Assembly (NCBI GenBank): GCA_902598735.1
Contig: CACKCM010000005.1
Span: forward strand, 1-64,000
From: an uncultured Pelagibacteraceae bacterium
Lineage (GTDB): Bacteria > Pseudomonadota > Alphaproteobacteria > Pelagibacterales > Pelagibacteraceae
Direction: 5' to 3'
Length of the DNA: 64,000 bases
Numbering within the stretch: the first letter of the stretch is position 1; each line of letters starts with the position of its first letter. Of this stretch, positions 11,914 through 60,660 are shown piece by piece. The notes under the pieces were generated by a model. It saw only the letters and a program-made list of their open reading frames with translations, was not told the DNA's origin and did no database searches. A program made the position numbers and the translations under genes.

Positions 11914-13017
11914 TTATTCTTCTTCTTTTTTATCGCTAATTTTTTCGTTTGCCGAAGGATTGCCTTCTAGCTCTTTACTAATCGCAGAAGCTTCATCTCT
12001 GATGATTTTTTCTATTTCTGCTGCTACATTAGGGTTTTTTTGGAGATAAATTTTCGCGTTTTCTCTACCTTGACCAATTTTTTCTCCTTTATAAGCATAC
12101 CAAGCGCCTGATTTTTCAACCACACCTGCTTTTGTACCAAGATCGATTAGTTCACCTAATTTACTAATTCCTTTTCCATACATTAAATCAAATTCTACAA
12201 CTTTGAATGGAGGTGCAACTTTGTTTTTAATTACCTTTACTCTCGTAGAATTACCTATGATTTGATCTTTTTCTTTAATAGCCCCTATCCTTCTAATATC
12301 CATTCTTACAGATGAATAAAATTTTAGTGCGTTTCCGCCAGATGTAGTTTCTGGATTTCCAAACATAACACCAATTTTCATTCTTATTTGGTTTATAAAT
12401 ATTACCATTGTATTAGATTTAGAAACTGATCCGGTAATCTTTCTTAAGGCTTGGCTCATCAATCTTGATTGTAAGCCAACATGGTGGTCGCCCATTTCAC
12501 CCTCTAACTCAGCTTTTGGAGTTAATGCAGCTACAGAGTCCACTACCAAAACAGATACTGATCCTGATTTAATTAATGTATCAGTTATTTCTAAAGCCTG
12601 TTCACCGGTATCTGGTTGAGAAATTAGTAGTTCTTCTGTTTTAACACCTAATTTTTTTGCATAGACTGGGTCCATAGCATGTTCAGCATCAACAAAGGCG
12701 CATATGCCACCAGCTTTTTGTGCCTCAGCAACTACTTGCAAAGCTAAAGTTGTTTTTCCTGAAGACTCAGGTCCATAAATTTCTATAATTCTTCCTTTAG
12801 GCAGTCCTCCTATTCCTAAAGCCAAATCTAAACTTAAAGATCCCGTTGATATAGCTTCTACATCTAAAGCTTGTTGCTGGCCAAGCCTCATTACTGAACC
12901 TTTTCCAAAATTTTGATCTATTTGACTAATTGCAGCCTCTAAAGACTTGTTTTTTTCCTTTAATTCCTGCTGTTTTTTATTGTCTGTTTTGACGACTTTT
13001 AAATTATTTTTTGTCAT
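11914..13017 (-). CDS. recA: Recombinase RecA
   Basis: ATP-dependent strand-exchange protein for homologous recombination and, in organisms with LexA, co-protease of the SOS response. The 367-residue sequence is canonical: Walker A GPESSGKT at 82-89, the MRLG and STGSLSLD N-terminal core, [19 protein letters not shown], the L2 loop region [21 protein letters not shown], and an acidic, charged C-terminal tail (DKKEEE). The 91-bp upstream spacer holds a promoter and a possible operator. Confidence 0.98.
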
Positions 13018-20707: not shown

Positions 20708-21478
20708 TTATCTAGATGATAATCTTGTGTTTTGCATTGCTGCTGCCCAGATAACTAGACCGAAAGCGATCTTATTAACAAAGTCAGCTAAATTGTAAAT
20801 TACGTTTAAAGCATTTGCATCGACACCACCAGTTAGGTAACCGAAAATATATCCTAATGGATAAATCGCCCAACCAATTGTTACGATTATTCTCATAGCG
20901 CTGAATGCTGTAGACATAGCCTTGTTACCAGCTTTTGCCGCCATTGTTCCAGCTTCACCTGAGAATATTTCAAACAAGATGTAAATCCATCCAGCCATTC
21001 CAATTACGAAACCTACAAATGGTTGAATATAACCAGCTTCACCTAAGTATCCACCGATTAACATTACTAATGAACCAATTAATAGCTTCCAGAATATAGA
21101 AGTTGGCACCTTTCTAACAGCTGCCAAAATTAGATAGAATTCTATCATTTGAAGTGGCACAGTGATTAACCAGTCGATATATCTGTATACCGTTGGTGAG
21201 TCACCTGTAGTCACCCAAACTTCTCTCATATACATGTAGTGAACGAATGCAACACCAGTTACAAGTCCAGCTACTGTTAAAGATGTTCTCCATGATGCAG
21301 CAACAGTTCCTCTTTCAGCAAAGAAAAACACAGTTGTTGCGATCATTCCCATTGATACAAGCCAGAATGAAATTCCTACGAAATCATTTGTCTGTAACAA
21401 TGCAGTCGCTGCGTTAGCTGAGCTAGTAATACCTAAAAAGGCAACTGCTGCTAAAGCAAATAGACCTAATTTTCTCAT
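20708..21478 (-). CDS. Proteorhodopsin, light-driven proton pump (blue-tuned)
   Basis: A 256-residue retinal protein with a cleavable signal peptide (about 1-23) and seven helices. Key residues: H80 next to the proton acceptor D102 (RYIDW), donor carboxylate E113 (MIEFYLI), and retinal Schiff-base K236 (DFVNKIAFG). Position Q110 (VPLQMIEF) corresponds to Q105 of the reference proteorhodopsin, which gives blue absorption; green forms have Leu or Met. The retinal cofactor's synthesis genes are not in this window. A strong Shine-Dalgarno (GGGAGG) lies about 6 nt before the ATG, and a terminator follows. Confidence 0.97.
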   Translation of the reverse strand: MRKLGLFALAAVAFLGITSSANAATALLQTNDFVGISFWLVSMGMIATTVFFFAERGTVAASWRTSLTVAGLVTGVAFVHYMYMREVWVTTGDSPTVYRYIDWLITVPLQMIEFYLILAAVRKVPTSIFWKLLIGSLVMLIGGYLGEAGYIQPFVGFVIGMAGWIYILFEIFSGEAGTMAAKAGNKAMSTAFSAMRIIVTIGWAIYPLGYIFGYLTGGVDANALNVIYNLADFVNKIAFGLVIWAAAMQNTRLSSR

Positions 21479-57477: not shown

Positions 57478-57891
57478 CTAATTTTTGTAAGGCTCAGAAA
57501 TCAAAGCAACTTTAGAGAATCCGGCTCCAGATAAAGTTCCCATGATTTCAAGTACTCTCCCATAATTGATATTCTTATCGCCTCTTACATAAATTCTTGT
57601 ATCGGTTCTATTCTTTGCGATAGCTAGTAATTTTGGTATCATTTTCTGATAAGTTACTTGGTGCTCCTGAATAAATATTTCTCCCTTAGAGTTAATACTA
57701 ATTGTCAGAGGCTCTTGATCGTCTGGAAGTGAGTCAGCTGCAGACTCCGGCAAGTCAACTTGAACTCCGACAGTCAACAATGGGGCTGTTACCATAAAAA
57801 TGATTAGCAAAACTAACATTACATCAACGAAGGGAGTGACATTTATTTCACTCATTGGTTCGTTTTTTGAGCGATTAAATTTGAAAGACAT
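57478..57891 (-). CDS. tolR: Tol-Pal system protein TolR
   Basis: ExbD-family subunit working with TolQ as the proton-driven motor. The 137-residue protein has the conserved MSEINVTPFVDVMLVLLIIFMVTAPLL helix holding the protonatable Asp in the membrane, followed by a periplasmic domain with QVDLPE and IYVRGDKNINYG. It is three nucleotides from tolQ and eight from tolA. Confidence 0.96.
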   Translation of the reverse strand: MSFKFNRSKNEPMSEINVTPFVDVMLVLLIIFMVTAPLLTVGVQVDLPESAADSLPDDQEPLTISINSKGEIFIQEHQVTYQKMIPKLLAIAKNRTDTRIYVRGDKNINYGRVLEIMGTLSGAGFSKVALISEPYKN

Positions 57892-57894
57892 TAT

Positions 57895-58575
57895 TTAAAT
57901 TATTGATAGAAATCTTTTTGAAAAATTTTCAATTTTTGAAAAATATCTTCTAGAGTCACTATTAAATTTATTATAGGCAACTACTGCTGGTATTGCTGCT
58001 AACAAGCCTAAAGCTGTAGCAAAAAGAGCTTCTGCTATTCCTGGAGCGACTATAGCTAAACTGGTATTTCTAGAAATAGCAATTGATTGAAAAGAATTCA
58101 TTATTCCCCAAACTGTTCCAAACAATCCGATAAAAGGTGCGGTAGAGCCAATTGTAGCAAGGTATGTAAAATTTTTCTCAACTTTTTTGAGTTCATTGTC
58201 AGTGGCTATTTCTAATATTCTTTCAACTCTTGCAGACTGTGAAGCAGAGGATTGTCTTTTTGTTTTAATAAGTTCTGTCATAGCCGCTTTAAATATAATT
58301 GTAGCTGGATCAGTAGAATTCACTGGAAGATTGTTGTTAAAACTTTCAGCTGATTTCGCTTTCCAAAATTTTTTTTCAAAATCTTCTGTCGTTTTATTTA
58401 TTTTTCTAAAAAGTTTGAATTTATCAAAAATTAGTGCCCATGAAAATATCGAGCTTGCAATTAATAAAATAATTACGAATTTTACAACAAAGTCAGCTCG
58501 TATAAAAAGACTCCACAAAGAAAAGTCTGAGGCCCCGCCCAATCCAACGACTTGTGCAGCTATATCTTGTTCCAT
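57895..58575 (-). CDS. tolQ: Tol-Pal system protein TolQ
   Basis: ExbB/MotA-family channel subunit with three membrane helices. The 226-residue protein contains the N-terminal helix FVVKFVIILLIASSIFSWALIF, then a cytoplasmic loop and the paired helices with LATIGSTAPFIGLFGTVWGIMNSF and GIAEALFATALGLLAAIPAVVAYN, which are family hallmarks. It heads the Tol genes. Only 57 bp separate it from the RuvC-like gene; a ybgC-type thioesterase, often first in tol operons, is not here. Confidence 0.96.
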   Translation of the reverse strand: MEQDIAAQVVGLGGASDFSLWSLFIRADFVVKFVIILLIASSIFSWALIFDKFKLFRKINKTTEDFEKKFWKAKSAESFNNNLPVNSTDPATIIFKAAMTELIKTKRQSSASQSARVERILEIATDNELKKVEKNFTYLATIGSTAPFIGLFGTVWGIMNSFQSIAISRNTSLAIVAPGIAEALFATALGLLAAIPAVVAYNKFNSDSRRYFSKIENFSKRFLSII

Positions 58576-58632: not shown

Positions 58633-59124
58633 TTAATTTTGATCTTTTAATCTTGTCTCATAGTAAAATCTAGCTATTAAAATAGCATCAGATTTATTTA
58701 CATCTTTTTTTTTTGATAAATGACTTGATATAGAAGGATACATTTCAATGGCCTTTGTCCTGCTTGAGTCCTTGCTAGAATTTATTAACTCAAAGTATTT
58801 TTTCCATCTAGAGGGCCTTACAAAAAAAATTGGTAAATCTAATGCAGCACAAACACCCTTTATAGCTCCAAAGGTTTGACCAAAATTAAACATGCTCGTA
58901 ACTCCTTGGCCAGGCATCGCATTTACTTGCTCTACTACGACAACTACTTCTTCGTTATTTTTTATATTTTCTTTAATTATACTAACTAATTGAGCGCTAT
59001 TTAATTGCCTTTTGTTTTTTTTTCCTTCGGCCATCACCGGCATATCAATTAAAGTAATTACCTGTTTGTTTTCTAAAATCGCTATTGCACCACTTAGTCC
59101 TGGATCTATACCAATTATTTTCAT
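58633..59124 (-). CDS. RuvC-like Holliday junction resolvase, phage type
   Basis: A 163-residue RNase-H-fold nuclease in the locus where ruvC normally sits (between yebC and the Tol genes). Catalytic acids fit: D7 (GIDPGLSG), E65 (VVVEQV), D141 and D146 (KKKDVNKSDAILIARF). But the sequence differs from bacterial RuvC: the middle reads NAMPGQGVTSMFNFGQTFGAIKGV and PSRWKKYF, a form I recognise from phage RuvC-like proteins. It would cut four-way DNA junctions. ruvA and ruvB are not adjacent. A chromosomal copy of a phage-type resolvase replacing RuvC is the inference; function as the cell's main resolvase is unproven. Confidence 0.85.
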   Translation of the reverse strand: MKIIGIDPGLSGAIAILENKQVITLIDMPVMAEGKKNKRQLNSAQLVSIIKENIKNNEEVVVVVEQVNAMPGQGVTSMFNFGQTFGAIKGVCAALDLPIFFVRPSRWKKYFELINSSKDSSRTKAIEMYPSISSHLSKKKDVNKSDAILIARFYYETRLKDQN

Positions 59125-59128
59125 ACTT

Positions 59129-59851
59129 TTAATATTCTAAGTTTATATTAGTAAATACATTTTGGACATCATCAAGCTCTTCGAGAGCACTCAAAACTTC
59201 TATCATTTTTTTAGATTGTTCCTCGCCAATGGCTTGGAGGTTATTTGGTCGCCACTCTATAGCGGAATAAGAAAGGTTATGAATTTTTTTCTCAAGTTCG
59301 GTTTTAATTTTATAAAAATCTTCTTTTTTTGTAATTATTTCATGAAATTCATTATATATATAACAGTCTTTTGCTCCAGCATTTATTGCAAGTTCGAAAA
59401 CTTCCTCTTCTGAAATTTCGTTTTTTTTAATGTGAATAATACCGCAATGATTAAACATGTGAGATGTTGAACCAGTTTCTCCCAATCGACCGCCGTTTTT
59501 CTGTAACACAGTTCTTATGCTTGAAGCAGATCTGTTTTTATTGTCTGTTAAAGTCTCAATTATTAAGGCTGTATTAAAAGGACCAAAGCCCTCATATCTT
59601 AAACTCTCAAAATTTTTATCTCCTGAAATTTCGGACTTACTGATTGCCCTCGAAATATTATCTTTGGGCATATTAGCTTGTTTAGCAGCTTGAATAGCTG
59701 TTCGTAGTCTTGGATTCATATTAGGATCTTTATCTCCAAGTTTAGCGGCCACAGTGATTTCTCTTGATAGTTTTGAAAATATTTTAGATCTTTCTTTGTC
59801 AGCCCTCCCTTTTTTATGTTTAATACCTGCCCAGTGAGAATGTCCTGCCAT
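59129..59851 (-). CDS. yebC: YebC/PmpR family protein
   Basis: Widely conserved protein, described as a DNA-binding regulator and, for some members, a translation factor that relieves ribosome stalling. The 240-residue sequence starts MAGHSHWAGIKHKKGRADKERSKIFSKL, has MPKDNISRAI and YEGFGP, then GGRLGETGSTSHMF and the C-terminal EWRPNN. It commonly precedes ruvC; here it precedes the RuvC-like gene, 4 nt away. Confidence 0.96.
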   Translation of the reverse strand: MAGHSHWAGIKHKKGRADKERSKIFSKLSREITVAAKLGDKDPNMNPRLRTAIQAAKQANMPKDNISRAISKSEISGDKNFESLRYEGFGPFNTALIIETLTDNKNRSASSIRTVLQKNGGRLGETGSTSHMFNHCGIIHIKKNEISEEEVFELAINAGAKDCYIYNEFHEIITKKEDFYKIKTELEKKIHNLSYSAIEWRPNNLQAIGEEQSKKMIEVLSALEELDDVQNVFTNINLEY

Positions 59852-59853
59852 AT

Positions 59854-60660
59854 CTATTTTGTTAATACACCCCCTGAAATAATTCTTAAAACTTTTTTTG
59901 CCAACCCAGTATTTTCATCTGCTTCAACTATTACTCCAGATAATGTTCCGTCACCTTCAGATGGAAAATGCTTAATGGCCTCTTTATCTTTAAAAAATTT
60001 TTTTAATGAGTTGTCTTTATTCATACCAATAACCGAGTTATAATCACCGCACATCCCAATGTCTGTTTGATAAGCTGTTCCTTTGTCTAAAATTCTAGTA
60101 TCAGCTGTTGGAACATGAGTATGAGTACCCACAACACAAGTTGAAGCTCCATCAAAAAAATGTCCAATAGCCATTTTTTCACTAGTAATCTCACCATGAA
60201 AATCAACAATTAAAAAATCTGCATTTTTTTTTAGAATAATTTTTTTACATAGATCTTTTGCAGTTAAAAAAACATCTTCCGATTTTCTCATAAAAACATT
60301 TCCCATTAAGTTTATAACACCAATTTTATACTTCTTGCTTTTTGATAAAAAAATTCCAAAACCTTTGCCTGGAGTTCCTTCTGCCAAATTTGCCGGTCTT
60401 AACAGTCTATGCTCTTTTTCAATGAAAGTATTTGTTTCCTCTTTATCCCAAATATGGTTTCCAGAAGTAATAACATCAACTCCTAAAGAAAAAAAATTAT
60501 CAGCGATTTCTCTAGTAATTCCTTTGCCATCATCAGCAGCATTTTCTCCATTAATAACTGAAAATTCAATTTTATGTTCCTGTATAATTTTTGAAAGATT
60601 TTTTTGAATAGCTATTCTTCCAGATTTACCCATCACATCACCTAAAACTAAAATTTTCAT
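59854..60660 (-). CDS. YmdB-type metallophosphoesterase
   Basis: A 268-residue dinuclear metal phosphodiesterase of the TIGR00282 family. Metal motifs: LGDVMGKSGR, VINGENAADDGKGI, TSGNHIWDKEE, IVDFHGEITSEK and VVGTHTHVPTADTRIL with TDIGMCGDYNSVIG. A Bacillus member, YmdB, hydrolyses cyclic nucleotides and affects RNA decay; the role here is not known. It overlaps the cyclo-ligase gene by 1 nt and lies 2 nt from yebC. Confidence 0.9.
   Translation of the reverse strand: MKILVLGDVMGKSGRIAIQKNLSKIIQEHKIEFSVINGENAADDGKGITREIADNFFSLGVDVITSGNHIWDKEETNTFIEKEHRLLRPANLAEGTPGKGFGIFLSKSKKYKIGVINLMGNVFMRKSEDVFLTAKDLCKKIILKKNADFLIVDFHGEITSEKMAIGHFFDGASTCVVGTHTHVPTADTRILDKGTAYQTDIGMCGDYNSVIGMNKDNSLKKFFKDKEAIKHFPSEGDGTLSGVIVEADENTGLAKKVLRIISGGVLTK

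Follow-up and report, generated by a model that had tools for sequence, protein, structure and literature searches.

A phage- and chloroplast-type resolvase gene in the ruvC slot of Pelagibacteraceae, a family without recognisable RuvABC

Pelagibacteraceae (SAR11) carry, at the chromosomal position of ruvC, a gene of the MOC1/PHROG_1770 resolvase family, and RuvA, RuvB and canonical RuvC are absent from the genomes sampled across their order. The likely reading is that the RuvC block was exchanged in the ancestor of the family for a single MOC1-type resolvase that works without RuvAB; junction cleavage is inferred here, without biochemistry. RuvABC is the textbook machine that finishes DNA recombination and is present in most bacteria. 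SAR11 bacteria are among the most abundant on Earth and show high and promiscuous recombination; they are without RuvABC and carry a phage/chloroplast-type enzyme in its stead. A 2025 study has listed missing RecBCD, RecF and MutSL to explain the promiscuous recombination of SAR11, with the Ruv system unmentioned (PMC12374537). No description of RuvABC loss or of a MOC1-type resolvase in SAR11 was found in the open-access literature searched, subscription papers being outside its scope. What is new is the inferred role of a known enzyme family as the fixed, chromosomal substitute for RuvC, without RuvAB, across a very large group of bacteria. Chloroplasts, where MOC1 is the enzyme in use, offer a parallel.

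The slot gene, its family and its active site

The window is the whole stretch of DNA analysed, 64,000 nucleotides in length, from a genome of 889 kb in 20 contigs that is 84% complete. The ORF in the slot (Table 1) starts with ATG. The stop codon of yebC lies 4 bp ahead of this start, and the interval of 57 bp between the end of the resolvase gene and tolQ contains neither ruvA nor ruvB. Pairwise comparisons with seven relatives gave dN/dS of 0.04–0.10, on par with yebC and tolQ; dS was saturated, and therefore these values tell only that selection is purifying. The ORF is a genuine gene, maintained by purifying selection. Named relatives of the protein at 75–91% identity are all from Pelagibacteraceae/Pelagibacterales. 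In the family genomes examined no phage genes surround the resolvase gene, the flanks being ymdB-yebC and tolQ-R-A-B. The window also contains, as judged by sequence, a RecA gene at 11914–13017 and a 256-aa ORF at 20708–21478 that resembles proteorhodopsin.

Table 1. Features of the resolvase locus in the window, and slot proteins in other families (positions there are within the named loci)
Feature	Position	Strand	Basis
MOC1/PHROG_1770-type RuvC-like gene for a putative Holliday junction resolvase, 163 aa, chromosomal ruvC slot	58633..59124	(-)	ORF, PHROG_1770, PDB MOC1, fold
yebC, upstream slot boundary	59129..59851	(-)	Pfam PF01709 (173 bits) and PF20772
tolQ, downstream slot boundary	57895..58575	(-)	Pfam PF01618 (MotA_ExbB, 131 bits)
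ymdB-like phosphodiesterase gene, conserved flank	59854..60660	(-)	Pfam PF13277; order matches L334
tolR, conserved flank	57478..57891	(-)	ORF carrying NVTPFVDVMLVLLIIFM motif; order matches L334
Catalytic D7 codon	59104..59106	(-)	invariant in 17-member alignment; aligns with MOC1 D115 and RuvC D7
Catalytic E65 and base-recognition-type loop EQVNAMPGQGVTSMFNFG, residues 65-82	58879..58932	(-)	aligns with MOC1 BR loop (PMC7078210)
D141 codon	58702..58704	(-)	invariant in 17-member alignment; aligns with D of NtMOC1 KKDHGRAE
D146 codon	58687..58689	(-)	invariant; aligns with E. coli RuvC D141 and with the last acid of MOC1 (E257 as numbered in the paper)
f2 slot protein	L186:1017-1397, L187:2077-2460, L184:1027-1398
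Refilled slots of four other families (f32, f25, f51, f119)	L210:1131-1499, L212:2014-2328, L211:948-1451, L233:960-1475

The protein belongs to the MOC1/PHROG_1770 family and is not a canonical bacterial RuvC. Pfam RuvC (PF02075) scored 20.0 bits, below the cut-off of 22.2 bits, and the NCBIfam RuvC equivalog scored 17.6 bits against a cut-off of 163. PHROG_1770, a family of phage Holliday junction resolvases, matched residues 1–156, nearly the full length, at E 4.9e-37. A tblastn search matched 89 phage records, every one below 60% identity, and a scan of IMG/VR found 588 relatives among 600 candidate stretches, of which the best 80 were 38–50% identical. The nearest phage proteins are 44–50% identical to the SAR11 protein, MOC1 23–34% and RuvC at most 24%. 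Among solved structures, the first nine matches of a single-sequence search were all plant chloroplast MOC1 (best 6kvn, 1e-17) and the first bacterial RuvC appeared only at E 0.12; a family-profile search gave 6.8e-21 for MOC1 versus 0.023 for bacterial RuvC. Foldseek with an AlphaFold2 model of the SAR11 protein (pLDDT 87.6) matched ZmMOC1 at TM 0.86 (E 7e-13) and bacterial RuvC at TM of about 0.5–0.7, and the fold predicted by the model is RNase H-like and closest to MOC1. Cleavage of Holliday junctions as a dimer is inferred. It is possible that current automatic annotation names the gene crossover junction endonuclease.

The active site is intact. Residues D7, E65, D141 and D146 are invariant in 17 proteins spanning the family (identity down to 56%) and are kept in about 150 family copies. 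In the 17-protein alignment, A69–G74, most of what comes next (AMPGQGVTSMFNFGQ, to Q83) and W107-K108-K109 are also invariant. The key residues reported for MOC1 are D115, D117, E174, K229, H253 and E257 (PMC11183143), and the equivalents of D115, E174, E257 and K229 are present as D7, E65, D146 and W107-K108-K109. The second Asp of plant MOC1, D117, is missing; G9 stands there in the SAR11 protein and glycine in the aligned phage members, and RuvC is likewise without it. D117 is a trait of plant MOC1 and not of the wider family, and its absence therefore does not bar membership of the latter. The aligned active sites also showed traits of the MOC1 type that RuvC does not have, including a longer loop after the Glu (AMPGQG), a WK motif and a KKD-x4-[D/E] spacing where the acids of RuvC are closely spaced. 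In NtMOC1, D183 is the residue that reads the base, a cytosine (PMC7078210). Counted by hand on the active-site alignment, Q73 of the SAR11 protein stands at the D183 position, and because of this replacement the sequence preference for cleavage would be expected to differ from that of MOC1, which remains an inference.

The protein thereby shares with MOC1, the chloroplast Holliday junction resolvase (PDB 6kvn, 6jrf, 8kfr), the RNase H fold, the D...E...D/E active site, the WK motif and the long post-Glu loop, but differs in its low identity, in residues 9 and 73 and in its bacterial housekeeping locus. It forms one family over the full length with the PHROG_1770 phage resolvases, e.g., those of Salmonella phage epsilon15, whose AMPGQG loop is identical, and Planktothrix phage PaV-LD. 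Unlike these phage enzymes, the SAR11 gene is fixed in the chromosome of the whole family at the ruvC position and without prophage genes. Bacterial RuvC (PF02075, E. coli 1hjr) has the fold superfamily, the locus and the presumed job in common with the SAR11 protein, but the latter is distant in identity, has another loop and another C-terminal acid spacing, and lacks a ruvA/ruvB partner. RecU in Bacillota and RusA in lambdoid prophages are known to do the job of RuvC in bacteria. RecU works with RuvAB and RusA is an added prophage gene, whereas SAR11 has lost RuvAB and the exchange took place at the ruvC locus itself. The initial annotation, made from sequence alone, had claimed that the four acids named above are kept, that the middle of the protein is phage-like (motifs AMPGQGVTSMFNFG and PSRWKKYF) and that RuvAB genes are missing between the gene and tolQ. 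All three claims held, with every acid correctly numbered and both motifs present in a PHROG_1770 match.

RuvABC in the order, ancestral gene order and phylogeny

The sample of the order consisted of 147 genomes, including 105 near-complete ones and several assembled as one contig, and the Ruv profile searches had positive controls in 8–10 named genomes. RuvB (TIGR00635) was found in 0/147 genomes of the order, as were RuvA (TIGR00084) and canonical RuvC (PF02075) over their cut-offs; the same RuvC search was positive in 130/142 genomes of the class. RuvABC is absent from the order over this sample. Matches to PF05496 in every genome were rejected as RuvB; they are short AAA+ matches of ~21–30 bits in frames of 419 aa, 556–584 aa and ~800 aa, the lengths of other families, and TIGR00635 decided against RuvB. 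Weak RuvA matches were also rejected, covering only a 30-residue stretch of RecR-like helix-hairpin-helix in frames mostly of 202–211 aa. Weak PHROG_1770 matches (E 1e-4) were RuvX in both cases examined. RuvX/YqgF (PF03652, 126–129 bits) is a separate gene in the two SAR11 genomes tested (G006 and G168; loci L425 and L426).

PHROG_1770 was detected in 88/105 near-complete genomes of the order, one of these (G036) by a weak partial match of the RuvX kind. Five of the Pelagibacteraceae genomes without a match have no yebC and one (G155) has yebC truncated, and therefore in these genomes the locus was simply not assembled; the remaining negatives of the order belong to the sister family f2. In all assembled Pelagibacteraceae loci the MOC1-type gene lies between YebC and (YbgC-)TolQ. 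The gene is fixed throughout the family and not a one-off. In one genome (G013), the slot gene occurs twice, in slightly different form, on contigs C18 and C13 (L007; L127 and L133), probably from a mixed assembly.

Genome G186 (locus L334) has the order zapA-FTHF cyclo-ligase-ymdB-yebC-ruvC-ruvA-ruvB-ybgC-tolQ-tolR-tolA-tolB, and six further loci (L332, L333, L335–L338) showed matching parts of it; the ruvA and tolA steps of this order were assigned from position and sequence. In SAR11 the flank order is that of L334, with a single gene where ruvC-ruvA-ruvB stands, and ybgC is still 3' of the resolvase gene in genera g5, g7 and g8. Because the flanks around ruvC-ruvA-ruvB in L334 are identical, the slot is confirmed as exactly that of ruvC. 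The simplest reading, and a likely one, is in-place replacement accompanied by the deletion of ruvA and ruvB.

A tree of 67 rows was built from SAR11, phage, plant MOC1, alphaproteobacterial RuvC and E. coli RuvC sequences and the slot protein of genome G295 (family f119). The two MOC1 rows were taken from the structure-search alignment; the Pfam results are independent of these rows and of the E. coli row. Canonical RuvC formed one side of a 100/100 branch with the SAR11 protein not inside it, and in the free tree SAR11 was a single clade (99/91) that branched among the phage and MOC1 rows. The AU test rejected nesting of SAR11 inside a subset of alphaproteobacterial RuvC, that of reduced genomes (p 6e-6, 162 log units). 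A topology that puts SAR11 with all canonical RuvC on one side of the phage/MOC1 rows was not rejected (p 0.325), and the tree therefore fixes neither where the phage/MOC1 group is rooted nor which way the transfer went. Transfer from phage to SAR11 is probable, as an inference of which the tree alone is no proof.

These results bear on the remaining claims of the initial annotation. Its expectation of ruvC between yebC and tolQ, with ruvA and ruvB after it in many relatives, held in the L334 order. Its proposal that a phage-type enzyme replaced RuvC in place, for which it cited the yebC context, is supported by the family assignment, the AU test and the L334 slot. It had left two alternatives for RuvAB, of which presence elsewhere is unsupported and loss is supported. 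The phylogeny it suggested, with RuvC and phage families, put the protein outside canonical alphaproteobacterial RuvC, and the search it proposed for ruvA, ruvB and a second RuvC, run over the order, found no standard ruvCAB elsewhere and none of the three over cut-off.

Proposed mechanism and rival explanations

In the proposed mechanism, the Pelagibacteraceae ancestor would have lost the block ruvC-ruvA-ruvB that lay between yebC and ybgC/tolQ, and a single-gene MOC1-type resolvase of RNase H fold, from a family otherwise mainly in tailed phages, would have taken the vacated place. By analogy with MOC1, the resolvase is most likely a homodimer that would bind the Holliday junction in open form. 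The conserved loop E65-Q-V-x-A-M-P-G-Q-G would be inserted into the crossover, and D7, E65, D141 and D146 would make two symmetric metal-dependent nicks, as in MOC1, with no RuvAB motor. RecG may take over branch migration, or this step may proceed unaided, an inference for which there are no RecG data; for Wolbachia, it has been proposed that RecG compensates for a failing RuvA (PMC4224334).

It could be objected that the gene is a vertically inherited alphaproteobacterial RuvC that diverged fast and looks phage-like through its reduced, AT-rich genome. The chromosomal position is indeed that of ruvC, a residual Pfam match remains just under the cut-off and the RNase H fold is common to both. 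Against this stand the MOC1-specific loop, spacing and WK motif, the much higher identity to phage proteins than to RuvC, the AU rejection of nesting with reduced-genome RuvC and the strong RuvC scores of other very small alphaproteobacterial genomes, and this explanation is very unlikely. Reverse transfer, or the absence of any phage donor, is also unlikely; here phages would have taken their copies from an old bacterial gene, native to the SAR11 stem or to a bacterium outside the sample. The unrejected topology with SAR11 beside canonical RuvC is in its favour. However, in the class sample no genomes but those of SAR11 and a single further one match the MOC1-type family strongly, the family is abundant and diverse in phages, and the free tree puts SAR11 among phage rows.

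RuvAB might also be present but unrecognisable, or hidden in gaps, and work with the new resolvase. The incompleteness of the window's genome and the existence of AAA+ proteins leave room for this, but none of the 147 genomes, near-complete and single-contig ones included, gave RuvAB, the AAA+ frame lengths fit other families and the weak RuvA matches are RecR-like; it is very unlikely. Finally, the protein may be a phage-type RNase H-fold nuclease with a different job (e.g., flap, R-loop or incoming-DNA cleavage), junctions being resolved otherwise, such as by RuvX/YqgF or by RecG with replication restart. Its function is inferred from homology only, and a separate RuvX gene exists where tested. 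RuvX is the weaker resolvase candidate, being found alongside RuvC in bacteria. That unrelated resolvase-like families have refilled the ruvC slot in lineages without RuvB is a further point against a different job, and this explanation is unlikely. Replacement of the RuvC block by the MOC1-type resolvase remains the preferred reading.

The same slot in other lineages

In the sister family f2, where profile searches found neither PHROG_1770 nor RuvABC, the yebC-tolQ slot holds a PD-(D/E)XK resolvase-like protein of 123–127 aa in 24/24 genomes with the locus read. It scores above the cut-off of Pfam PDDEXK_15 and matches PHROG_244 at ~1e-20, and relatives 43–55% identical are found in viral contigs, with another in Roseobacter phage CRP-810. 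The PD-(D/E)XK call rests on the Pfam match and a GSD...EAK motif only, the AlphaFold model (pLDDT 52.7) being too poor to use. The slot was also inspected in ten class genomes outside the order without PF02075. In four of these, from families f32, f25, f51 and f119, the slot is occupied by a resolvase-like nuclease, and RuvB is likewise lacking. The f32 and f25 proteins match PHROG_2002 (1.6e-8 and 7.8e-7) and are the weakest cases because these scores are low; the f51 protein matches PDDEXK_15 (2.3e-21) and PHROG_244; and the f119 protein matches PHROG_1770 (8.7e-22) and is followed by ybgC-tolQ. The PDDEXK_15/PHROG_244 and PHROG_2002 phage nucleases, which occupy the equivalent slot in f2, f25, f32 and f51, are of the unrelated PD-(D/E)XK type and 105–168 aa long. 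Three of the ten (G197, G210 and G266) were rejected as RuvC losses, being false absences with RuvB present and a gap at the locus, and two more (G289 and G304) are incomplete genomes. In G311 (L344), which is 99% complete, RuvC and RuvB were undetected, no recognisable resolvase follows yebC and there is no tolQ.

The best evidence that the slot genes do the job of RuvC is that position, loss of RuvB and resolvase-like families coincide. This concordance suggests that RuvC was replaced repeatedly and independently at the yebC-tolQ slot. A bolder reading, to which the balance of evidence leans slightly, is that yebC-tolQ is a replaceable resolvase slot in which, after RuvAB loss in streamlined alphaproteobacteria, RuvC was swapped several times independently for phage resolvases that act alone and have unrelated folds. 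Its set would be MOC1-type in Pelagibacteraceae and f119, PHROG_244-type PD-(D/E)XK in f2 and f51, and PHROG_2002-type in f25 and f32. An AU test of SAR11 and G295 as one clade gave p 0.089, by which a separate acquisition in f119 is favoured and not shown. The refilling yields a testable rule, namely that loss of the RuvAB motor makes the resolvase replaceable by a phage enzyme that is self-sufficient. If the slot reading is true, motor-independent phage-type enzymes would finish much of the ocean's bacterial recombination, and these lineages would be natural test cases of how far recombination depends on motor-coupled resolution. Among other very small alphaproteobacterial genomes, RuvC is kept with scores above 100 bits. 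Two very small genomes of the class (G280 and G195) showed the reverse loss, with no RuvB seen and RuvC kept.
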